The position numbers and the translations under genes are program-made. A stretch of 64,000 nucleotides of DNA, from positions 76,089,631 to 76,153,630 of the forward strand of contig OX578279.1 in assembly GCA_951217055.1 (NCBI GenBank), in the 5' to 3' direction. The first letter of the stretch is position 1, and every line of letters starts with the position of its first letter. Source of the DNA: Gerris lacustris. Its lineage: Eukaryota; Arthropoda; Insecta; Hemiptera; Gerridae. Below the pieces are notes generated by a model that had not been told where the DNA came from, searched no databases, and worked only from the letters and a program-made list of their open reading frames with translations. Below are positions 3,966-61,398 of this stretch, piece by piece.

Positions 3966-4000
3966 CTAACGTTTCGCTAAATTTATTAGCATCATCAGAG
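3966..4000 (-). ncRNA. Hammerhead-like motif
   Basis: The minus strand reads CUGAUGA, U, GCUA, a 7-nt loop, UAGC, GAAA, CG. The core is fully conserved, with a 4-bp stem II and the same extra U after CUGANGA seen in the other minimal copies. Stem I pairing is weak. Confidence 0.45.

Positions 4001-5551: not shown

Positions 5552-5630
<79 letters not shown>
5552..5630. repeat. (TA)n microsatellite, left of hammerhead cassette
   Basis: About 39 TA units lie immediately left of the cassette at 5636-6181. With the matching tract at 6182-6262 this suggests insertion into a single (TA)n array. Confidence 0.95.
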
Positions 5631-5634
<4 letters not shown>

Positions 5635-5791
5635 TATCAGCAGAGTAATACCGTGTTTTTGCACACTGCAATAGGCTACACAATTTGCGAGAGACACCAA
5701 GGGATGTGCCACGCAAGCGTGACACATAGGAACTGTTCCAACATCAGACATAACGTCATTAAGATGTTGGCTCGGCATTATGCCATGTCCT

Positions 5792-5834
5792 GCATCGTTT
5801 CGTCGCGTCCGACTCATCAGGGGCCCGACGATGC
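5792..5834 (-). ncRNA. Hammerhead ribozyme, minus-strand copy
   Basis: This is the exact reverse complement of 6025-6067. It has stem III GCAUCG/CGAUGC, cleavage triplet GUC, a self-complementary GGGCCC in the stem I position, core CUGAUGA, stem II GUCG/CGAC with loop GACG, and core GAAA. Confidence 0.7.
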
Positions 5835-6024
5835 CCACCCAACTCTGGACCTATACTACATCAAGAAGATCAGATATAGGACTTATCAGAGACGAGGGTG
5901 CTCTCATACCGCCATTCTTGCTTGGCTGGCAAAACACATCAGCAGAGTAATACCGTGTTTTTGCACACTGCAATAGGCTACACAATTTGCGAGAGACACC
6001 AAGGGATGTGCCAGAGTTGGGTGG

Positions 6025-6067
6025 GCATCGTCGGGCCCCTGATGAGTCGGACGCGACGAAACGATGC
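6025..6067 (+). ncRNA. Hammerhead ribozyme, plus-strand copy
   Basis: Stem III 5' strand GCATCG is at 6025-6030, UC at 6031-6032 (making the cleavage triplet GUC), GGGCCC at 6033-6038, core CTGATGA at 6039-6045, stem II GTCG at 6046-6049, loop GACG at 6050-6053, stem II CGAC at 6054-6057, core GAAA at 6058-6061, and stem III 3' strand CGATGC at 6062-6067. With the A-U pair of the core, helix III is 7 bp. Every canonical conserved nucleotide is present. Stem I has no loop and is palindromic, so an active form would probably need two molecules pairing through GGGCCC. In vivo activity is inference. Confidence 0.72.
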
Positions 6068-6176
6068 AGGACATGGCATAATGCCGAGCCAACATCTTAA
6101 TGACGTTATGTCTGATGTTGGAACAGTTCCTATGTGTCACGCTTTCGTGGCACATCCCTTGGTGTTTCTCGCAAAT

Positions 6177-6181
<5 letters not shown>

Positions 6182-6262
<81 letters not shown>
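6182..6262. repeat. (TA)n microsatellite, right of hammerhead cassette
   Basis: About 39 TA units begin directly at the end of the right cassette arm and decay into imperfect TA-rich sequence up to about 6360. Positions 6360-6580 hold nothing recognised. Confidence 0.95.
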
Positions 6263-6265
<3 letters not shown>

Positions 6266-6582
6266 TGTATAGTATATATAGTATAATATATAGTAGTAGT
6301 ATTTATTATGTAGCATATGTAGTATATATATATTATATACATAGTATAATATATATAGTGTGTCGACCAGTAAATCAACAGAATTTAGTTGAAATTTGTG
6401 TATCCTTTGTAGTTGGTTAACTGGTGTCACAGATCTGATTGTGTAGGTTAGTTGATAGGTATAATTTCTTTTCAACTTTTTGAAATGTAAATGCATTCTG
6501 ATGATCAAAGTTTTATTTATCTACAATATATAACTAATTTAGAACAATTATTTTTTAGAAGATATTTTTTAAATTAAATAGT

Positions 6583-7158
6583 GTGTCAATTATTGTGGCA
6601 CATAGCTTCCTCGCATCCTATTTAATATTATATTATGATTTTTTGCTTTTACAACCTATTATAGTCAAATTTATTTAATTTTCCTCCCGTTTTTTAATTC
6701 TTTCAATTGATAAAGTATCAATTTATCAAAATTTAAAGAGTGCAGACGGTTGAAATTAATCTGGAACTATCTGCGGGCCTACTTTCGATGAACCACCAAA
6801 ATTTCATAAAAATTAAATGAGTACTTTTGAAGATTTAGGTTTAAATGAATGTATGTTTGTGCGCATGTGGAAATAAATCTAATATGTGCAGAATCTTAAA
6901 ACTTACACGTCACCAATAAGAGGCTAATTATGACCTACCATTAAAATTTCATTAAAATCATATGACTAGATTTTAAGATATATTGGTTCGATAAAATTAA
7001 GTGACAGACCGAGAGTCTGATACGGAACCAAACATTTTCCTTGATGTCTAAAACGGATTTCTATATTGAAATTTTTGAAATCGGAGACATAAAAAAATAT
7101 CTTTCTTCAAAACGATCATGCATATAGCTTCCGTTACCTTCGGTATCCTCGGAAGCAA
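6583..7158 (-). repeat. Rep-A copy, minus
   Basis: It runs from the shared 3' end (complement of GGAAGCTATGTGCCACA) to the 5' hairpin (complement of GAGCTTACCGAAGGTAACGG, here decayed). The standard interior is present: a CTGCGGGC block, a CCTACCATTAAAATTTCAT block and the ATTTTTGAAATCGGAGACAT block. Confidence 0.8.
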
Positions 7159-7198
7159 TAAGAACAAAGAAATTTGAAGTTTAAATTTAATGAAAATA

Positions 7199-7955: not shown

Positions 7956-8424
7956 GTTGACAATAACTTCTTTTGTTGAGGGAAAAAATTATAATTAATT
8001 ATTATAGTGCACATTGCAAAGAAAATTCTCTTAGGGAAAGAGTCAACATATTTAATTTTCCCCAGTTGCCAGAAGAGCTACTAGAGGGTCCTAGAAGTTA
8101 CATGTAGGTGTAGGTCCTTCCGGTGGCCTCTGATATTGGCAGGGTCATTAGCTACAGCTTAACTTGGCTTAATGGCTGTAAATTATGGGTAGCAAGCCTG
8201 GTCTTACGTAGTCTTACGTTCCAGAGTTTGGCAAAATATTTTAAACAAGTTATTCCAGGTGTAACTAGGAGGCACTTAATAATAACTTAACAAAATCCTC
8301 TGGTCCATAATTTTGCTCTTTTCGAACAATAACAAGACATGTAGGTGACTGATTTTATGTTAGTACATTATTACAGCTACTAATATCCATTTTATTTTTC
8401 TTTATTTATTACTTTTTATACTAC
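7956..8424. other. Intron sequence, nothing recognised
   Basis: This stretch is less AT-rich than its surroundings but has no supported ORF, RNA or repeat. Confidence 0.5.
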
Positions 8425-8948
8425 TTCCGAGCTTACCAAAGGTACCGGAAGCTATGTGATCGTTCTGAAGAAAGAAACTATTTTATGTCTCCGATTTCAA
8501 AAATTCCAAGACAGAAATCCGTTTTAGACATCAGGGAACATTTTTGGTTCCGTGTCTGTCTGTCGCTCTATTTTTGCGAATCTATCTTAAAAACTGCACG
8601 ACCGATTTTAATGAAATTTGGTCCCATATAAGTTTCAACTTTCTGCGCTTATTTGTTTCTCTTCCACATACGCACAAACTTACATTTATTTACACCTATA
8701 GCTTCAAAAGTACTTATCTGATTTGTATGAAACTTTTTTAGTTTATCAAAAGTAAACGGCAGATAGACCCAGATTAATTTTAACCGTGTGCGCTCTTTAA
8801 CTTTTGCTAAATTGAGACTTTAATTTTTTTTTTTTTTAGAAACGGGGGAAACAATAAATTAAAATAGGACAATAATGGCTTGTAAAAGCTTAAAATCAAT
8901 AAAGTATTTGATAGGATGCAAGTTATGTGCAACACCAATTGGCAGTTT
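8425..8948 (+). repeat. Rep-A copy, plus
   Basis: It begins with a variant of the terminal hairpin (TTCCGAGCTTACCAAAGG) and ends with ACACCAATTGGCAG. The whole Rep-A interior is present, including the CCGATTTCAAAAATTCCAAG block. Confidence 0.8.
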
Positions 8949-9028
8949 ATTTTTTTTTATTATTATATTTGTCTTTTTAAGCTTTGTAGCATTGTTTTCT
9001 CCCTGTTTCACTGGTACTTATCGAATTC

Positions 9029-9320
9029 TTTTTACTGGTCTTATATTACTTTGCTTTGTAAGTTTCATCGCACATTTCTGTTTCCCCAATTTTGAACCAC
9101 TTCCCGTGATTCAATCTTCCCCAAATTTTGCACATAGATACAACTAAGGTGAAGAATACAGAAACCAAAAAAAATAAAAACAAAAACAAAATGGCGTAAA
9201 ATTTATTTGCTTTTTAAGTTTCATCGCACACCTATTACCCTAATTTTGAACCACTTACCGTCATTAAAGCTTCCCTAAATTTTGCACATAGATACAACTA
9301 AGGTGAAGAATACAGAAACC

Positions 9321-9352
<32 letters not shown>

Positions 9353-9540
9353 GTCAAATTTATTTGCTTTCTAAGTTTCATTGCACACCTATTATCCCAA
9401 TTTTGAACCACTTACCGTCATTAAAGCTTCCCTAAATTTTGCACATAGATACAACTAAGGTGAAGAATACAGAAACCAAAAAAAAAAAAATAAAGTTGAA
9501 AAATAAGACCAGTTTTGAAAAATGGCATTTTTATATTAAT
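9029..9540 (+). repeat. Rep-J copy: three tandem A-rich monomers
   Basis: It starts with TTTTTACTGGTCTTATATTA. Three units each have TTTTGCACATAGATACAAC and a poly(A)-rich spacer. It ends with GACCAGTTTTGAAAAATGGC. Confidence 0.8.
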
Positions 9541-10086
9541 TATTATTTTAAATGTTGTGTTATTATCTGGCAACACGATATTTAAAAAGCTTTTCATGAG
9601 CGTAACCCTTTGAAATGTTATTTTGTTGTCTCAATATTCATTTTCAATTGTATACTATGTTAATGAAATTTTGTTATTAATAACTTGATGGTGGACCCTC
9701 GCTTAGCCCACTCTGCTGGACGGGTTGAAAGCGATAGTTAAGCGAGCTTCCTTAATGAATTAAAGGGAAATACTCCAAGGCTTTACAAAGTACCCCCACC
9801 CCAGTGTTAGATATATATCTAACACAGTGTTTCGAGTGCCGTGATATGGCTCTCGTTATGTTTTGCTTTATGATCCTCTGGAGTTGAATGTTTGTCCGTC
9901 CATAATTTCTTGTTTTAATTGCTCTTAAGCTGACTCTCCTAAGAGCTTTTAGTCCTCAATATATGATTTTCACTCAGTTAAGCGTCGTAACTAAACATTG
10001 CAGCCTTCATTAAACCCTTTTATAAGCCTTTAAATTAAAGGAATAAGCTATTCATCGAGCAATTGCTTTTATGTTTTATTCTTATT
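9541..10086. other. Intron sequence containing a 22-bp perfect palindrome
   Basis: A perfect palindrome lies at 9804-9825, with half-site GTGTTAGATAT. Nothing else was recognised. Confidence 0.55.
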
Positions 10087-10667
10087 GCTTCCGAGCTTAC
10101 CGAAGGTAACGGAAGCTATGTGATCGTTCCGAAGAACAAAAAATATTTAGGTCTCCGATTTCAAAAATTCAAAGACAGAATTCCGTTTCAGACATCAGGG
10201 AACATTTTTGGTTCCGTGTCTGCGTCTGTCGGTCTGTTGTTCGATTTTTGAGAACCAACATTCTTAAAAACTACACGTCCGATTTTAATGAAATTTGGAT
10301 GGTATGTCATTAATTAGCCCATTGTTGGTCCCATATAAGTTTCAACATTCTGCGCTTATTTGTTTCTCTTCCACAAGCTCACAAACATACATCTATAGTT
10401 TCAAAAGTACTTATCTGATTTGTATGGAACTTTTACAGTTTATCGAAAGTAACCCGCAGATATCCCAAGATTAATTTGAACCGTCTGCGCTTTTTAACTT
10501 TAGCTGATACTTTAATTCATGTAAAACATTAAAACAATTTTGACAGATTAAAAAACGGGGGAAAAAATTAAATAAATTAAACAATAATAGCTTGTAAAAG
10601 CATACAACCAATAAAGTTCGTGGATAGGATGTGAGGAAGCTATGTGCCACACCAATAACTGGCAATC
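10087..10667 (+). repeat. Rep-A copy, plus, well preserved
   Basis: The terminal hairpin GAGCTTACCGAAGGTAACGG is intact, followed by the full-length interior and the GAGGAAGCTATGTGCCACAC 3' block. It is one of the best copies for building a consensus. Confidence 0.85.
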
Positions 10668-13305: not shown

Positions 13306-13880
13306 AAATACCGGAGGTAACGGATGCTATGTGATCGTTCTGAAAAACGAAAATATATTATGTCTCCGATTTCAAAAATCTGAAGACAGAAATCCATTTC
13401 AGTTATCAGAAACATTTTTGGTTCTGTCTGTCGGTCTATCGCTCAATTTTTGTGAACCAATATATCTTAAAAACTACATGTCCGATTTTAATGAATGATA
13501 ATAGGTTATAATTAGCCCATTGTTGGTCCCATATAAGTTTCAATCTTCTGCGCTCATTTGTTTCTCTTCCACATGCGCACACACATACATTTATTTACAC
13601 CTATATCTTCAAAAGTACTTATCTGATTTGTATGAAACTTCTATAGTATATTGAAATTAACCCGCAGATAGCCCCGGATTAATTTGAAACCGTCTACGCT
13701 CTTTAACATTTTTATAAATTGATGCTTTAATTCATGTAAAAAATCAAAACAATTTTGACAGATTAAAAAACGGGGGAAACAATTAAACAAATTAGACAAT
13801 TAGGCTTGTAAAAGCTTATTATTAATAAAGTACGTGATGTAATACGAGGAAGCTATGTGCCACACCAATTGTGGAAATCT
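13306..13880 (+). repeat. Rep-A copy, plus, diverged 5' hairpin
   Basis: It starts in a decayed hairpin (ACCGGAGGTAACGGATGC) and ends with GAGGAAGCTATGTGCCACAC. The interior is full length. Positions 13881-14260 hold nothing recognised. Confidence 0.8.
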
Positions 13881-14257
13881 ATTCTGTGTACGAACTATCT
13901 AGGGAATCGTTGTCTCTCTAACTAGAAATTCTTTATTAATTTTTAAAAAATACGAATTTATATAATATACGAGAAAATTTCTGTCCTTCATAAATCACAG
14001 CCCTTAGATTTATTGTTAGAAGAATTGATTTTTTAGAAAAATTCTCTGAGTTTAACTAGGTCCTGTCTGTTTCAGCTTTAAATCATAATTCATTTTGTAT
14101 TTTAGCTCTTGTTGTGTTTAGGACTGAGTTGGATGAGTGTCAGAATTGCCTCTAGGTTGGTCAGACAATTCTTCTCTACATGGCTTTTAGTTTCTCCACA
14201 TATTAGGCGCTAAGCTAGTTAGTCTGGTACCCTTCTATTACAGCTGTGGCTTTTTAA

Positions 14258-16208: not shown

Positions 16209-16489
16209 AGAAATTATCCTAAGTGGTTTTAATCGCAGGAGATTTATTTAAAAATTTAATTAATTATAATCTTTTGAAGGTTTTTTTCTTGTAGATGTTG
16301 CTCAAGTGACCTAATATTTATTGGTTCCTTAATAAATTCCGCAAGTTGTTTACTTTATAGTTCAGTTTAACATTTTCTTGGGATAGCCTCGAAATAGAGA
16401 GATTATCAACCAGGTTAGGGAGAAACTAAACCGCAAATTAGTACCATTGGCTTAGCCAAGGAGATTTCAATCTCAATTTATTAATTTTG

Positions 16490-17070
16490 ACTCCGAGCTT
16501 ATCGAAGGTAATGGAAGCTATAGAACGAAAATATTCTCTGTCTCCGATTTCAAAAATTCCAAGACAGAAATACGTTTCAAACATCAGGGAACATTTTCTG
16601 CGTCTGTCTGTCAGTCTTTCTGTCGCTCAATTTTTGCAAACCCAACATATCTTTAAGACTGCACATCCGATTTTAACAAAATTTGTGTGGTAGGTCATAA
16701 TTAGCCTATTCTTGGTCTCAAATAAGTTTTAACCATCTGCGCCAGAATGTTTTTCTTCAATATGCGCGCAAACATTCATTTATTTATACCTATATCTTCA
16801 AACGTACTCATTTATTTTTTATGAGATTTGGATGATTTGTTGGAAGTAGCTTACAGATAGGCCCGGATTAATTTGAACCGTCTGCGCTCTTTAACTTTTG
16901 CTAAATTGATACTTTAATTCATGTAAAAAATCAATAACAATTGTGACAGATTTAAAAAACGGGGGAAACTGTTAAATAAATTAGACATTGTACAACCCTG
17001 TAAAAGTATAACATCAATGAAATTCGTAGTAGGACGTGAGGTAGCTATGTGCCACACTATTTGGCAGACT
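16490..17070 (+). repeat. Rep-A copy, plus
   Basis: It starts TCCGAGCTTATCGAAGGTAA and ends ATGTGCCACACTATTTGGCAG, with a full-length interior. It lies directly upstream of another Rep-A copy in the same orientation. Confidence 0.8.
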
Positions 17071-17153
17071 ATTTTACTATGACTTTTGCTTTCGAGCTTA
17101 GATAATGTAAAGGAAGCTATGTAATCGTTCTTTAGAACGAAAAATGATATATG

Positions 17154-18147
17154 CAGGGCCGCCCTTAGCAGTTGCGGGGCCCTGGACAAATCTTGGTTGC
17201 GGGGCCTTTTTGATTGAACTCGTGTCGAAATGGGGTACACAATTTTACCTTCGGTAACCACGGGGTGCACTCGTCATATATGTGTTGATTTTATTCTTCC
17301 CTTTACTAAAATGTAAATCGTCTTACTTATACGAGTGCACCCTGTGATTACTGAAGGAAAAATTGTGTATATTCATAATGACCAAGAAAACAAACATATT
17401 TTGTTATAAATGTATGTATTGTTTATTACATTACACTGAAAATGTGTTAACAGGTTATATGGTACCTACAAAACATAATAAAAACAATATACAATAATTG
17501 GAATATCGCGTAAAAAACTGAAAAATAACAAGTTTAAAGTCTCATTTAAATTACAAAGCAAAATTCACTTTTCTTGATTTCTGCTTAGCGAACTCAATGA
17601 GTCAATGAGGGTGTCAAAATTAATACTTTCAACTGTATTGTACTCTATTGATAGAGTTGCGAGGGATGAAAGTCTTTCTTGGGATACAGTCGTCCTTAAA
17701 TAAGTTTTGATTTGTTTCAAGCGAGAAAAGCTCCTTTCCGCACTTGCGACTGTAATGGGAAGGGTCAACAAAATTCTGTACACTATTTGAAGGTTAGGGA
17801 AAGGATTCTTGATGTCATGTGGGTACTTGAGAACTTTAATTGGACTGTCAATACCATCTGGAACAATTTCACGAAACACTTTTATTTCAGTTAAGAGCTC
17901 AGATCGACTTATATCTTTGGACACATACTCGTCTTCATGATATACTGTTACAGGACCATTCCAAGCAGTTAGATCATGTTCTATTTGCCGTATTTAAAAA
18001 AGTGTTTTTATTAAAATATGAAGAAATGTGTAATAAAAATACGAGTTCTGCATTTTACTTCTCTATATTTTTTTATTTGTTTCTGAGGTGCGGGGCCCCT
18101 AAAAGCGCGGGGCCCGGGGTGGTTGCCCCTGCCTAAGGGCGGCCCTG
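17154..18147 (-). mobile_element. hAT transposon derivative, ZMYM1-like lineage
   Basis: The terminal inverted repeats are CAGGGCCGCCCTTAGC at the left and its near-complement ending TAAGGGCGGCCCTG at 18147. The flanking 8-mers GATATATG and GTTATATG match at 7 of 8 positions, as expected for a hAT target duplication. It encodes only the C-terminal part of a transposase on the minus strand, so it is an internally deleted, non-autonomous copy inserted into a Rep-A element. Confidence 0.9.
17565..17993 (-). pseudogene. hAT transposase C-terminal fragment
   Basis: An open frame of about 142 codons ends at the stop near 17565. An in-frame stop lies just upstream at 17994-17996, and no ATG starts the frame. 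The diagnostic stretch is FPNLQIVYRILLTLPITVAS followed by AERSFSRLKQIKTYLR and ERLSSLATLSIE. This is the hAT family C-terminal dimerisation region (Dimer_Tnp_hAT), in the form found in ZMYM1-like transposases. In intact elements this part helps the transposase dimerise. The zinc finger and catalytic RNase-H-like core are missing, so this copy cannot be an active transposase. It lies wholly inside the terminal inverted repeats at 17154 and 18147. Family identity is confident; the exact subfamily is not. Confidence 0.85.
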
Positions 18148-18786
18148 GTTATATGTCTTCGATTTCAAGAGTTCTAAGACTCAAATCCGTTGCAGACACC
18201 AGTTCGTCTGGCGGTCAGTCGCTCAATTTTTGCGTACCAGTATATCTTAAAATCTACTCGTCTGTTTTTATTGAAATTAGGATGGTAGGCCATAAGCCCA
18301 TTTTTGGCTTCTACGACTATTTGTTTCTCTTCCACATGCTCACAAACATGCATTTATTTACACCCTATAATCTTTAATTTTTAATATCTGATTGTTATGA
18401 AATTTTGCTGGTTTGTCGAAAGTAGCCGCAGTTGATAGCCCCCGATTAATTTCAACCTTCTGCGCTCTTTAAATTTTGCTAACTTATTACTATTATTCAT
18501 GTAATAAATCACATCAACAATTTCGACATTAAAAACGGGTGGGAAATTAAATAAATGTGACAAAAATAGGTAGTAAAAGCATAAAATCATTGAAGTATAC
18601 GTGAGGAATAAATCAGTTTGACTTAAGGAAGATATGTACTACACTAATTGGTATAGACTATTTTAATAATTATTTAAGACTATGTTATCCAAGAATACGT
18701 GAATCCTAATTTGTTTATCTTTTATATTAGCTTTTCTATTCGATATTGTTTCCTCATTTATATTTTTTTTTGTTTTGTCTGGGCAG

Positions 18787-19799: not shown

Positions 19800-20415
19800 A
19801 CTAGCAGCCCTATATGGAGGTGAACGTGTAAAAATTACGAATGTTTCTGTTTTTACCTTCATGTTTCATGTAAGATTTGCTAATTAATATCTAATTGTGT
19901 CATAAAAACTTAAAATGATAATCATCACATGTTAGCAGCATACTCGTATCGGTTGATTCTCTAACTTTTTTGTCATACATCCAAATTTTGCGAATATCAA
20001 ACAGGGATATTTATCTAATTTGTTGGAAAATATAATAACGCTGTTTGTGGTCGAATTCCGAACTAAGCTGAGATTATTTTGTTGGTAATAACGATAACAT
20101 AGTTAATCTCCTTTCAACTATGCGTCCTGTAATGACCTAATGAGATGTTGAACGGGACTAAAACTACAACCAAAAAAAAAAAAAAAAAAAAAAAAACTAT
20201 GCGTTATTTATCTATTTTTTTTTTCAAATTTCTTTAACAATTTATAATACCTAATAACACGTATGTTAATACACTTCTGATCAATCTTATTCGTTAATGA
20301 GAACGTTAAAAAATACGTAGGAATAGAAAAAGTGGCCTTAACAAATTAAATAGTAGTGGGATGTGGTTATGTTTTTTAATAAAAAAAAAATTAACTAAAA
20401 CAACCAAAAGTATAG
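19800..20415. other. Intron sequence, nothing recognised
   Basis: Apart from a poly(A) run at about 20172-20196, no feature was seen. Confidence 0.5.
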
Positions 20416-20487
20416 TGCCGTGACCAGGATTCGAACCTGGGTTATTGCGGCCACAACGCAAGGTACTAACCACTATACGATCACGGC
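20416..20487 (-). tRNA. tRNA-His (GTG)
   Basis: The 72-bp gene folds as a complete cloverleaf on the minus strand. It has acceptor GCCGTGA/TCACGGC with discriminator A, A box TATAGTGGTTAG, anticodon loop TTGTGGC with anticodon GTG, and B box GGTTCGAATCC. It carries no intron and no mismatch in the stems. Downstream on the minus strand a TTTT tract follows, a plausible pol III terminator. It lies inside the large fry intron, antisense to fry. Its upstream flank resembles that of the copy at 54454, so the genes spread by duplication of a larger unit. Pol III transcription in vivo is inferred from the intact internal promoter. Confidence 0.95.
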
Positions 20488-25210: not shown

Positions 25211-25244
25211 AAATTTTCGCCCATGCCTGGGCATCATCAGACTT
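25211..25244 (-). ncRNA. Hammerhead-like motif
   Basis: The minus strand reads CUGAUGA (25234-25240), U, GCCC, loop AGGCAU, GGGC, GAAA (25215-25218). The core is fully conserved, with a perfect 4-bp GC stem II and the extra U typical of the other minimal copies. Confidence 0.5.
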
Positions 25245-25285
25245 TTATCTGAGTAATAATAGTGTTCATTTCAATCTCCTTTTTT

Positions 25286-25866
25286 GCTTCCGAGCTTACC
25301 GAAGGTAACGGAAGCTATGTGATTGTTCTGAAGAACGAAACATTTTTAGGTCTCCGATTTCAAAAATTCCAAGACAGAAATCCGTTTCAGACATCTGGGA
25401 TCATTTTTGGTTCCGTGTCTGTCTGTCGGTTGGTCTGTCGTTCAATTTTTGCGAACCAAAGTACCTAACTACACGTCCAATTTTAATGAAATTTGTGTGG
25501 TAGGTCATGAGTAGTCCATTGTTGGTCCCATATAAGTTTCAACATTTTACTCTCATTTGTTTCTCTTCCACATTCACACAAACATACATTTATTTACTCC
25601 TATAGCTTCAAAATTACTTATCTGATTTGTATACAACTTTTATAGTTTATCGAAAGTAGCCCGCAGATAGCCTCAGATTAATTTGAACCGTCTGCGCTCT
25701 TTAACTTTTGCTCAATTGATACTTTAATTCAAGTATAAAATCAAAACAATTTTGACAGATTAAAAAAAAACAGGGGAAACAAATTAGACAATAATGGCTT
25801 GCAAAAGCATAAAATCAAAAAGTACGTGATAGCATGCGAGGAAGCTATGTGCCACACCAATTGGCA
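25286..25866 (+). repeat. Rep-A copy, plus, well preserved
   Basis: It has an intact hairpin GAGCTTACCGAAGGTAACGG, full interior and GTGCCACACCAATTGGCAG end. Flanking 25125-25175 and 25885-25925 are an inverted pair (AATATTCTTTTTCTTAT and its complement). Confidence 0.85.
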
Positions 25867-26680
25867 GTCTATTTTATAAACAATTCTCTAGAGCCCGCTA
25901 TAAGAAAAAGAATATTAGAAAATTATGGTATTAACTGAAGAATAATTAAACTATACACTTTAGAATTTTAATTTGAAAAATAAATTATAAACACGTTTTT
26001 TTGAGTATTTGAAAAGGTTGCGCCCCAAAAGTTAGTGCTAAAATTTACGATTTCTCTTTTGGGTGATTTTTCTGAACGTGTGCCAAATTTCATTGAAATC
26101 TGCACAGTTTAGACTCCACACGTCTGCACGGATGACGTAACATTCGTTCAGTTAAGCCGGATTGCATTAAATATCTACTACTATGAATATACAATAGTAA
26201 ACTGATTTAATTTATTTGATTTAATTGATGAGATTTAGTTTGTGTTCAGTAGTTAAATTTAGATTTGTTTTAACTAAAATGAGACGAGGGCAACTCTAAA
26301 GGAGTAGTAAATGGACACTAAATCTTCACTAACCAGAGAGTCATTATACTGTTACTACCAAGGAGACTTAATAAATTTAAATTAACTTCTTTCGTTTTTC
26401 CGAACGTTAAGATTCCAAACTTGAGATAACTACCCTTTAACTTAGGGGCTGAAAATCTTAAATCTTTACTAACCGAGGGGCATCTCGCAATATGAAAGCT
26501 ATAAAAAAACTGTTAAGCGTTTAATATAAAGGCTACTTTTAAAATCTATCATCTTTACTCCATTATCCCTATAAGTGTAGGTTAGTGGAAAACTGTTATT
26601 ATATTGATTTATCTCTTATAACAAAATAAAATAAATTTTCTGAGTTGCAAAAAAAAAAAAAAATTAATAAAAAATAGATT
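25867..26680. other. Intron with a Rep-N fragment
   Basis: Positions 26030-26135 (GATTTTTCTGAACGTG, GCCAAATTTCATTGAAATC) resemble part of the Rep-N copy at 38500-38936. The rest is unassigned. Confidence 0.45.
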
Positions 26681-27246
26681 GCCAATTAGTATGGCACATA
26701 TAGCGTCCTCGTATCCTATCACGTACTTTATTGATTTTATGCTTTTACAAGCTATTATTGTTTAATTTATTGAATCATTTCTTCCGTTTTTTTAATCTGT
26801 CTAAATTGTTTTGTTTTTTACATGAATAAGAATATCAATTAAGAAAAAGCAAAAGAGCCGCAGACAATTAAAATTAATCTGGTGCTACCTGCGGGCTACT
26901 TTTAACAAACCATCTAAATTTCATAAAAAAAGCAGATAAGTACTTGAGAAATTATAGGTGTAAATAAATGTATGTTTGTGCGCATGTTGAAAGGGAAAAT
27001 AATGGGAGCAGAAAATTTATATGTGGCCAACGATGGGCTAATTATGGCATACCATACAAATTTCATTAAAATCGGACGTGTAGTTTTTAAGATATATGTT
27101 TGTCCGCAAAAATTGAGCGATAGACAGACACGGAACAAAAAATGTTCCCTGATGTGTGAAACGGATTTCGGTCTTGGAATTTTTGGAGTTGAAGACATAA
27201 AATATTTTCCACATAGTTTCCGTTACCTTCGGTAAGCTCGGAAGCA
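26681..27246 (-). repeat. Rep-A copy, minus
   Basis: It starts with the complement of the CAATTGGCAG end and finishes with the intact hairpin TTCCGTTACCTTCGGTAAGC. The full interior is present. Confidence 0.85.
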
Positions 27247-27266
27247 ATAAATAAATATATAAATAA

Positions 27267-45287: not shown

Positions 45288-45359
45288 GCCGTGATCGTAT
45301 AGTGGTTAGTACCTTGCGTTGTGGCCGCAATAACCCAGGTTCGAATCCTGGTCACGGCA
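45288..45359 (+). tRNA. tRNA-His (GTG)
   Basis: This is a 72-bp complete cloverleaf identical in every stem to the copies at 20416 and 54454. It has acceptor GCCGTGA/TCACGGC plus discriminator A, A box TATAGTGGTTAG, anticodon GTG and B box GGTTCGAATCC. A TTTTTT tract at about 45365 is a strong pol III terminator. It lies in the sense orientation in the large fry intron, about 1.36 kb upstream of the exon at 46719. The 3' flank (ATATAAATGG, ATAAAACAA) is partly shared with the copy at 54454, pointing to duplication of a unit larger than the gene. Expression is inferred from the intact promoter and terminator. Confidence 0.95.
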
Positions 45360-45507
45360 CTATACTTTTTTCTTTTATTTAGAAATACATATATAAATGG
45401 TATAAAACAACCCCTATTAATGCTTCTCGGGGATACTGATTAATTCCCCACCTTTTATTTTAAATGTGCCAAAATTATTTTTGATATTTTACATGAATAA
45501 TAGTTAT

Positions 45508-45651: not shown

Positions 45652-46252
45652 TTTTACCTCCAGAAGGGAGAAAAAAATATGGAAAGATTTTAATTTTAAA
45701 TTTCGTTATTCAACAAAAAATACATAGGTTTGTATTTATTTTTTAAAAAATATAGTTAGATATAATATTAACATTTCTCTAAATAAGTTTAAACACGTTA
45801 GAATTAAATTATAGATAATAATTATTTGAATTTCAATGCTAAAATTAAATGGGAGAATCAGCTGGAAGCTGAGTCGTGTATTGAATGGTGTTGACAACTG
45901 ATGTATTTAAATATGGATCAGTTAATCTACATTTAGAAATTATGTTTCCACTTTTAACTTGTTTGTCTCTTTTACTGATGAATCATATAGCAACAGTTGG
46001 CGTTGTAGAGGTTACATGACATGTGTGAAAGATTTAGACATTAAACAAAAGTTAGTAAATGAAATGTGTATTAGCACCAACCTTATTTACTTGTGCTTTA
46101 TCTAGGGCAAAACTGGAGGGAATCATGAGAGTTCATGATTCCCTTCATTACTCCCTGTTTCACCCGACCGGGTGCAATGAGTAACTTGCCTCCCTGTAAA
46201 CTAGGGAGGAAAGTTCACTTTTTCTCCCCGCTGGAGGTAAAAGTATTAATTT
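45652..46252. mobile_element. TIR element, TTTACCTCCAG ends
   Basis: TTTACCTCCAGAAGGGAGAA at the left matches the complement of TTCTCCCCGCTGGAGGTAAA at the right. A perfect hairpin GGGAATCATGA/TCATGATTCCC (46118-46128 and 46133-46143, 4-nt loop) lies inside. It is non-coding and immediately adjoins the MITE at 45508. Confidence 0.65.
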
Positions 46253-46257
46253 AGCAA

Positions 46258-46677
46258 AATATAAAGAGCTCAGACGGTTGAAATTAATCTGGGACTATCT
46301 GCGGGCTATACTTTTTACAAACCATCCAAATTTAAAAAAAGTCAGATGAGTACTTTTGAAGATATAGGTGTAAATAAATGTACTTTTGTGCGCATGTGGA
46401 AGAAAAACAAATAAGCGTAGAACTTTGATATGTACATTGGACCAACAATGGGCTAATTGTGACCCATCATCCAAATCTTAATATATATCGGTCGAGTAGC
46501 TTTTAAGATATTATGTTGGTTCGCAAAAATTGAGCGACATATAGACACGGAACCAAAAATGTTTCCTGATGTCTGAAATAGATTTCTGTCTTGAGATTTT
46601 TGAAATTGTTGACATAAACTTTTTCGTTCTTCAGAACGATCACATAGCGTTCGTTGTTTTTGGTAAGCTCGGAAGCA
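46258..46677 (-). repeat. Rep-A copy, minus, 3' truncated
   Basis: It runs from AAAGAGCTCAGACGGTTGAA to GGTAAGCTCGGAAGC. It ends only 41 bp before the fry exon, so it lies within the splice-acceptor and branch-point neighbourhood. Confidence 0.8.
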
Positions 46678-46718
46678 AAATAACTTTTAAATCAAAAGTT
46701 TTGAACTTTGTGTTGCAG

Positions 46719-48487: not shown

Positions 48488-48886
48488 TTGTAAATTCATC
48501 AACCGTTCAAGTTTTCCTTGTGTACTTGTGGTTATTTATTTTCTATAGTTAGTTAGTTTAGTGTAATTGTTCTGGCGATTTGTATTTTAAAACACTGCCG
48601 GCCTCCTTGAAACCATTTAACCAATTACATATAGTTTCTGCTTTCGGTACTTCAATGTCATACTGACGTCTGAAATTGCGCTGAATTGCCACAACAGACT
48701 TAGTTTTCACTAGCCAAATTACACACTGTTCTTTCTGCTGTGGATTTGCCATTGTACTGAACTCTATGGCGGCCACCCGCTGACTGGGGGCATCGTTTTC
48801 TCTCAACGGCTTGCTGGCTTACCAACTTTTGAAAATAAATAACCATAAGTACACGAGGAAAACTTAAACGATTGATGAATACAACT
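48488..48886 (-). mobile_element. Deleted transposon with about 55-bp TIRs
   Basis: TTCATCAACCGTTCAAGTTT with TCCTTGTGTACTTGTGG at the left is matched by the complement of the right end (CGAGGAAAACTTAAACGATT and GATGAATACAAC). The interior consists almost entirely of the DUF4817-type coding fragment on the minus strand. At about 0.4 kb it is an internally deleted, non-autonomous element. No clean target duplication was identified. Confidence 0.75.
48558..48752 (-). CDS. DUF4817-like transposon HTH protein, N-terminal fragment
   Basis: The open frame continues upstream to 48806, but the Met at 48752 is the likelier start because MANPQQKEQCVIWLVKTKS fits the family. The diagnostic pattern is QCVIWLVKTKSVVAIQRNFR, then YDIEVPKAETICNWLNGFKE and AGSVL. 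This is the helix-turn-helix domain annotated as DUF4817 in arthropods, found at the N-terminus of mariner-related transposases, where it would bind the terminal repeats. The catalytic DDE domain is absent: the frame stops after KSPEQLH and the terminal repeat follows. The fragment lies within 55-bp inverted repeats, so it is a deletion derivative. The frame is intact, which suggests a fairly young element, or that the truncated DNA-binding domain is still made; the latter is speculation. Confidence 0.75.
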   Translation of the reverse strand: MANPQQKEQCVIWLVKTKSVVAIQRNFRRQYDIEVPKAETICNWLNGFKEAGSVLKYKSPEQLH

Positions 48887-54453: not shown

Positions 54454-54525
54454 GCCGTGATCGTATAGTGGTTAGTACCTTGCGTTGTGGCCGCAATAAC
54501 CCAGGTTCGAATCCTGGTCACGGCA
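54454..54525 (+). tRNA. tRNA-His (GTG)
   Basis: This is a complete 72-bp cloverleaf, the same sequence as at 45288. It has acceptor GCCGTGA/TCACGGC with discriminator A, D-arm with TAGTGGTTAG, anticodon GTG, and T-arm CCAGGTTCGAATCCTGG. A TTTTT tract at 54532-54536 is a plausible pol III terminator. The 5' flank GCAAATCATCTTACCGTGAA and CACGCTCTTGTACCTTC is shared, in inverted form, with the copy at 20416, and the 3' flank with the copy at 45288. It lies in the sense orientation in the downstream fry intron. Three dispersed identical genes in one host gene's introns suggest recent segmental duplication or strong conservation. Expression is inferred, not shown. Confidence 0.95.
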
Positions 54526-54639
54526 CTATACTTTTTGCTATTTTTCAGAAATATATAAATGGAATAAAACAAACCCTAATTATGAGCTACTATCAAAATT
54601 AATGTTTACTCCCATCATAAAAATATTATCCAAAATCAG

Positions 54640-60573: not shown

Positions 60574-61398
60574 CTATTTTTACTGGTCTTATATTACTTT
60601 GCTTTGTAAGTTTCATCGCACATTTCCGTTTCCCCAATTTTGAACCACTTCCCGTGATTCAATCTTCCTCAAATTTTGCACATAGATACAACTTAGGTGA
60701 ACAATACAGGAACCAAAAAAAATAAAAATAAAAATAAAAATAAAAATGGCGTCAAATTTATTTGCTTTTCAAGTTTCATCGCACACCTATTACCCCAATT
60801 TTGAACCACTTACCGTCATTCAATCTTCCCCAAATTTTGCACATAGATACAACTAAGGTGAAGAATACAGAAACCAAAAATAAATAAAAAATAAAAAAAA
60901 TGGCGTCAAATTTATTTGCTTTTTAAGTTTCATCGCACACCTATTACCCCAATTTTGAACCACTTACCGTGATTCAATCTTCCCCAAATTTTGCACATAG
61001 ATACAACTAAGGTGAAGAATACAGAAACCAAAAACAAAAAAAAATAAAAAATGGCGTCAAATTTATTTGCTTTTTAAGTTTCATCGCACCCCTATTACCC
61101 CAATTTTGAACCACTTACCGTGATTCAATCTTCCCCAAATTTTGCACATAGATACAACTAAGTTGAAGAATACAGAAACAAAAAAAACAAAAACAATGGC
61201 GTCAAATTTATTTGCTTTTCAAGTTTCATCGCACACCTATTACACCAATGTTAAATCATTTACTTACCTTCATTCAATCTTCCCCAAATTTTGCACATAG
61301 ATACAACTAAGGTGAACAATACAGAAACAAAAAAAAAAAAAAAAATGGTTGAAAATAAGACCAGTTTTGAAAAATGGCATTTTTATATTAATTATTAA
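60574..61398 (+). repeat. Rep-J copy: five tandem A-rich monomers
   Basis: It starts TTTTTACTGGTCTTATATTA. Five units of about 145 bp contain TTTTGCACATAGATACAACT and ATGGCGTCAAATTTATTTGC, each with its own A-rich spacer. It ends GACCAGTTTTGAAAAATGGC. It is the longest of the three copies. Confidence 0.85.

Follow-up and report, generated by a model that had tools for sequence, protein, structure and literature searches.

A loop-less type III hammerhead motif in a retrozyme-like repeat of the Gerris lacustris genome: a candidate insertion by Penelope-like machinery

The hammerhead ribozymes of metazoan genomes are mostly of type I (PMC7229834). In animal retrozymes they occur in tandem repeats of 150–450 bp, for which Penelope-like elements (PLEs) have been proposed as helpers (PMC7229834). 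In most of the published circular RNAs of these retrozymes, the hammerhead is predicted to be free to re-open the circle, yet the circles accumulate, which is unexplained (PMC7229834). In animal DNA, type III hammerheads that have loop pseudoknots and long stems are described from termites and from dipterans (PMC7936874). According to a review of 2017, a type III hammerhead cleaves well on its own, as a monomer, and most engineered trans-acting constructs are type III ribozymes without a helix I loop (PMC6155905).

The insertion of a PLE has been described for the green anole. Its purified Penelope-like protein cuts AT-rich DNA and extends both strands, and reverse transcription starts internally, at two sites, the stretch between which corresponds to an optional “tail” of 30–40 bp in genomic copies; the start site is an AC-rich stem-loop (PMC11167929). 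The hammerhead of the anole element is dispensable for insertion in vitro, unprocessed RNA is taken as the dominant template, and the ribozyme cleaved only when the protein was added, with zero reads starting or ending at its site (PMC11167929).

The window analyzed here, that is, a stretch of 64,000 nucleotides from Gerris lacustris, carries a hammerhead motif of type III topology at positions 6025–6067 of the plus strand, with predicted cleavage after C6032. CUGANGA, GAAA, NUH, and the helices are found in the correct order. In detail, the triplet GUC ends at C6032 and is followed by GGGCCC, CUGAUGA, stem II (GUCG/CGAC with the loop GACG), and GAAA, and helix III comprises 7 bp (GCAUCGU/ACGAUGC, with the core U-A pair counted in). 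Stem I, read between GUC and CUGAUGA, is the loop-less and self-complementary GGGCCC and would form solely as a helix between copies. The preliminary description had reported the complete motif, a helix III of this length, and the loop-less palindrome, all of which are borne out; the conserved elements that it listed are present, with the minor correction that the G of GUC had been counted twice.

It had further proposed a search of both strands with Infernal and the Rfam models. Using cmscan, the motif at 6025–6067 aligned with RF00008 (Hammerhead_3) over model positions 1–54 of 54 at 42.6 bits, with an E-value of 6.2e-6 when the entire window was searched with 4227 families and of 8.8e-8 for 901 bases. 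The search thus recovered Hammerhead_3 on each strand, at a score below the curated Rfam gathering score of 48.5 bits; therefore, a default Rfam search of the window reports three tRNAs only. The window contains three identical tRNA-His(GTG) genes located within 34 kb, at 20415–20487 (minus strand), 45288–45360 (plus strand), and 54454–54526 (plus strand), each with ACTATACTTTT after it and with partly conserved sequence over ~100 bp before it. A descriptor scan (CTGANGA, GAAA, NUH, stem II of at least three pairs, stem III of at least six pairs, and 4–39 nt from the cleavage site to CTGANGA) gave two matches in the window, both in the hammerhead locus, and none in any of 60 first-order Markov windows. 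Two other CTGATGA...CGAAA matches on the minus strand (3972–3998 and 25215–25240) were rejected after inspection by eye, being without a matching helix III and cleavage triplet and absent from the descriptor scan. The hammerhead motif is real and lies in a small repeat of the mobile-element type.

The second match, overlooked in the preliminary description, is located at 5792–5834 of the minus strand, with predicted cleavage between 5827 and 5826, and is identical to the first over all 43 nt. Likewise overlooked were a tandem unit of 302 bp and an inverted repeat of 171 bp. The copy with minus-strand sense occupies 5637–6013 and its 377 bp equal 1.25 tandem units of 302 bp (unit at 5712–6013, minus strand); read in the ribozyme sense from 6013 to 5637, its initial 75 bp reappear at its end. 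The direct repeat of 5630–5711 and 5932–6013, with a spacing of 302, has two differences in 82 positions, both within the outermost 7 bp. The copy with plus-strand sense (6011–6181, 171 bp) starts 22 bases before the cleavage site, passes through it, and matches 5678–5848 of the minus strand at 169 of 171 positions, neither of the two differences falling inside the ribozyme. The two copies are placed head to head at 6011–6013, overlapping by 3 bp.

The 3′ ends of both copies run into (TA)n tracts, which lie at the left edge (5552–5630) and the right edge (6183–6262) of the element and would mask a target-site duplication. The two 3′ ends are 41 bp apart, the minus-strand copy ending with a stretch (5637–5677, minus strand) that is missing from the 3′ end of the plus-strand copy. 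The GC content is 50% in the element and 49.3% in the 302-bp unit, against 29% and 30% in the tested flanks and 32% in the window. A BLAST search of 5630–6190 against the window (E 1e-3) revealed no further copies. With its 545 bp, the element is too short to encode a reverse transcriptase and a GIY-YIG endonuclease; no homologue of the frame at 5632–5850 (minus strand) was found as a protein, and Pfam showed PLE domains in none of 10 ORFs of the window (10 tested of 171, at least 60 aa), all 10 being located outside the element.

The closest relatives in organization are the metazoan non-LTR retrozymes (Cervera and de la Pena 2020, PMC7229834), which share the short tandem hammerhead repeat, the unit of 302 bp in 1.25 copies falling within their range of repeat lengths, and for which a closed or multimeric RNA template has similarly been proposed. 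They differ in being type I with helix I open, whereas here helix III is open, stem I is loop-less, and the copies are head to head. Their GC content is given as <50% in the text and <45% in a figure legend of the same source, compared with 49.3% here. The locus is retrozyme-like, yet it departs from the animal family in its ribozyme type and in the number of ribozymes, since each strand holds one instead of two in tandem. With one ribozyme per strand, the locus is unable to release a unit-length RNA.

Plant LTR retrozymes (PMC7229834, PMC7761336, PMC7936874) are alike in their type III topology and in a stem II of 4 bp with a 4-nt loop. On the contrary, they have LTRs of ~350 bp and units of 600–1000 bp, in place of the 302-bp unit without such LTRs found here, and their stem I carries a loop of 6–8 nt, which is lacking here. 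The minimal hammerheads of PLEs and Terminons (PMC7761336, PMC6155905, PMC8490949) also have a core with one stem too weak on its own, a dimer as the proposed active form, and an association with a mobile element, but they are of type I and their weak stem is III, whereas in the present motif, of type III, it is stem I that is weak. The same difference separates the locus from the amphibian type I retrozymes, whose helix III is weak and which are poor as monomers and better in dimeric constructs (PMC7229834), a trait that the present motif may share. None of the titles, opening parts of abstracts, and passages searched, to which the key Penelope hammerhead reports do not belong, describes a naturally occurring type III hammerhead whose stem I is a palindrome without a loop. 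The type III topology is unusual in a short repeat of an animal genome, and so is the lack of a loop in stem I, for which a simple deletion may also account.

The reading preferred here, to which a probability somewhat above even is assigned, is that of a composite insertion of a small non-autonomous retrozyme-like element, with a 302-nt unit and a type III hammerhead, from a circular or multimeric RNA via Penelope-like machinery. The unit and its loop-less hammerhead are present in the DNA, from which we infer the nature of a retroelement. Cleavage at GUC|GGG would divide the tandem transcripts of more complete copies into pieces of 302 nt that could be ligated to circles. Penelope-like machinery may then have used a circle or an uncut multimer as the template for reverse transcription into a (TA)n target, and priming on both target strands would yield two sense copies placed head to head. 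The predicted cleavage site is read through in both copies, and neither of them starts or ends there. A linear cleaved monomer would give ends at that site, so the read-through sequence points to a circle or an uncut multimer as the template.

This agrees with the green anole, where unprocessed RNA is taken as the dominant template; since the hammerhead of that element is dispensable, cleavage may likewise be irrelevant to mobility. Comparable too, at this one locus, are the AT-rich target, which is (TA)n here, the apparent extension of both strands, and the tail, of 30–40 bp there and of 41 bp in its putative counterpart here (PMC11167929). A stem-loop at the start site is weakly suggested by the folding of the corresponding internal position: a hairpin across 5930–5963 (minus strand) has −6.6 kcal/mol and a z-score of −1.86, with 13 of 200 shuffles as good, whereas longer pieces were no better than shuffles (z −0.03 for 5926–5984 and 0.17 for 5637–5700, both minus strand). 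The link to PLEs drawn in the preliminary description may well hold by the anatomy of the insertion; it does not hold by the ribozyme, since the present one is of type III and the published PLE hammerheads are of type I.

It is a separate question whether the ribozyme acts as a dimer. Without a loop, the GGGCCC of one motif closes at most one pair of stem I; for this reason, efficient cleavage most likely needs two motifs that would share a continuous stem I of six pairs, whether in cis, with both motifs on one tandem transcript, or in trans. When the 43-mer is folded without flanks, the predicted dimer has a minimum free energy (MFE) of −39.1 kcal/mol versus 2 × −13.7 kcal/mol for the monomers, contains all 28 pairs of the double hammerhead, and gains 9.6 kcal/mol in ensemble terms; by energy, 39 of 1000 random stem I hexamers dimerize at least as well. 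In contrast, the dimer MFE structures of flanked motifs (±20 nt, ±60 nt, and the 302-nt unit) have 0 of the 28 pairs in all three contexts. The earlier expectation that two molecules form stem I, and that one does not form it well, is therefore supported for the bare motif and not by the MFE structures of the flanked dimers.

When two units are joined in cis, the cost relative to the free MFE is 3.3 kcal/mol for the double hammerhead, 3.4 kcal/mol for one monomeric hammerhead without stem I, and 5.7 kcal/mol for two of the latter. With 3.3 for the double and 3.4 for the single partial form, the double form is not clearly favored. The predicted probability of the monomeric hammerhead without stem I is 3.0e-3 for the bare 43-mer, falls to 2.0e-5 when flanks of ±20 nt are included, and is 1.2e-3 within the 302-nt unit, in energy models that leave out the tertiary stability of the hammerhead core. 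A hairpin of seven pairs, in which the CUGAUGA strand captures the cleavage triplet, is part of the MFE structures of 6011–6080, the 302-nt unit, and the 377-nt copy and is missing from the folds of the 43-mer and of the motif with ±20 nt. This predicted hairpin would keep a single copy off; the fold of 6011–6080 is no better than those of its shuffled versions (z −0.13, with 93 of 200 doing as well) and its MFE frequency is 0.15. A transcript spanning both arms could moreover form a hairpin of 171 bp that hides the ribozyme. Since both copies have the same motif sequence, they offer no variation for covariation. The contact between loops I and II is absent without a stem I loop, which is a point against the preferred reading.

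Dimeric cleavage via the loop-less GGGCCC is a plausible hypothesis. The fuller proposal is of a retrozyme whose loop-less type III hammerhead would cleave only as a double hammerhead through the palindromic stem I, being off in the 302-nt monomer or circle and on where two copies meet, with circles protected from re-opening; it is put forward tentatively and, taken as a whole, appears unlikely. If true, a ribozyme that takes two copies to make stem I would work on multimers and be silent on monomer circles, which would be a testable answer to the accumulation of circles. Dependence on a dimer via helix III is already known from the type I retrozymes of amphibians (PMC7229834), to which dependence via stem I in a type III ribozyme would, if true, add another route to the same end. 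The anatomy of the insertion would, for its part, be concrete support for the movement of retrozymes by Penelope-like machinery.

The absence of the loop can also be explained as a loss, in a degenerate retrozyme whose source has a looped stem I and of which both copies share the loop deletion, the ribozyme being nearly inactive. The match of the copies at 169 of 171 positions, probably reflecting one RNA or template, means that a shared deletion costs nothing, type III hammerheads are described with a looped stem I (PMC7936874), and in the Rfam type III model GGG and CCC are separated by seven additional positions. Against a loop deletion, though not strongly, speak the intact catalytic core and the exact self-complementarity of the six remaining bases, which has a chance of 1 in 64 for random bases by our own arithmetic. 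Deleting a hairpin loop alone would leave complementary arms. This explanation is accordingly a serious possibility, albeit on the unlikely side. A more distant one is ordinary satellite or foldback DNA, with a hammerhead inherited from an older element and without a present role, and with an inverted repeat produced by rearrangement near (TA)n. Such tracts are prone to breakage and border the element at both edges, and the locus is without two ribozymes in tandem. However, the inverted repeat stops short of the left edge, where there are 41 bp extra, and both outer edges are 3′ ends in the ribozyme sense, which a simple inversion does not require; this origin seems quite improbable.

Another conceivable origin is a viroid-like or delta-like RNA that was integrated and of which the locus is a remnant. 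Hammerheads lie on both strands here, and the delta-like RNAs of a toad and of termites have type III hammerheads in both polarities, which resemble some in the genomes of termites and dipterans (PMC7936874). At this locus, however, the ribozyme on the minus strand repeats the plus-strand sequence within an inverted copy, instead of being a separate motif in the complement of a single unit, and in the delta-like hammerheads stem I is long and stem II longer than here. A remnant of this kind is very improbable. The reading as a terminal-inverted-repeat element (MITE) is not favored either, as the inverted repeat fails to reach both insertion edges.

Relatives of the motif were sought by pattern scans in viral, bacterial, and archaeal collections, which are uninformative on animal genomes. 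In viral contigs, GTCGGGCCCCTGATGA had no matches, and neither had three longer patterns from the element. A 17-base pattern from its 3′ end gave four matches, a length at which chance matches are expected. The pattern GGGCCCCTGATGAN{4,20}CGAAAC had nine matches in bacterial and archaeal genome contigs, with GTC present in one of them (contig L002) and, by eye, a cleavage triplet together with helix III in none. Six bases between GTC and CTGATGA occur in at least 120 stretches of viral contigs. Among the 120 listed, four passed the pairing of stems II and III, and none of these had a fully self-complementary stem I. Three of the four are one repeated sequence (contigs L031, L043, and L094), possibly a product of chance, with nine pairs in helix III (wobble included), three in stem II, and a stem I that is not self-complementary.

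The remaining part of the window contains other repeats and transposon remains. A fragment of a hAT transposase is located at 17565–17993 of the minus strand (PF05699, E 5.5e-15) and a DUF4817 fragment at 48558–48818 of the same strand (PF16087, E 4.1e-8). Together with the animal-like tRNA-His, these two fragments point to an animal origin of the DNA. A dispersed repeat family of ~450–600 bp, ~68–84% alike and found on both strands, occupies at least nine places among the 60 longest pairs listed, namely 6576–7161, 8402–8977, 10068–10667, 13309–13883, 16485–17076, 18149–18668, 25280–25878, 26649–27266, and 46238–46692. A partly tandem repeat at 60577–61397 shows offsets of ~154–163 bp near 60598, 60761, and 60915, and a further copy of it, 88–93% alike, is located at 9029–9545.
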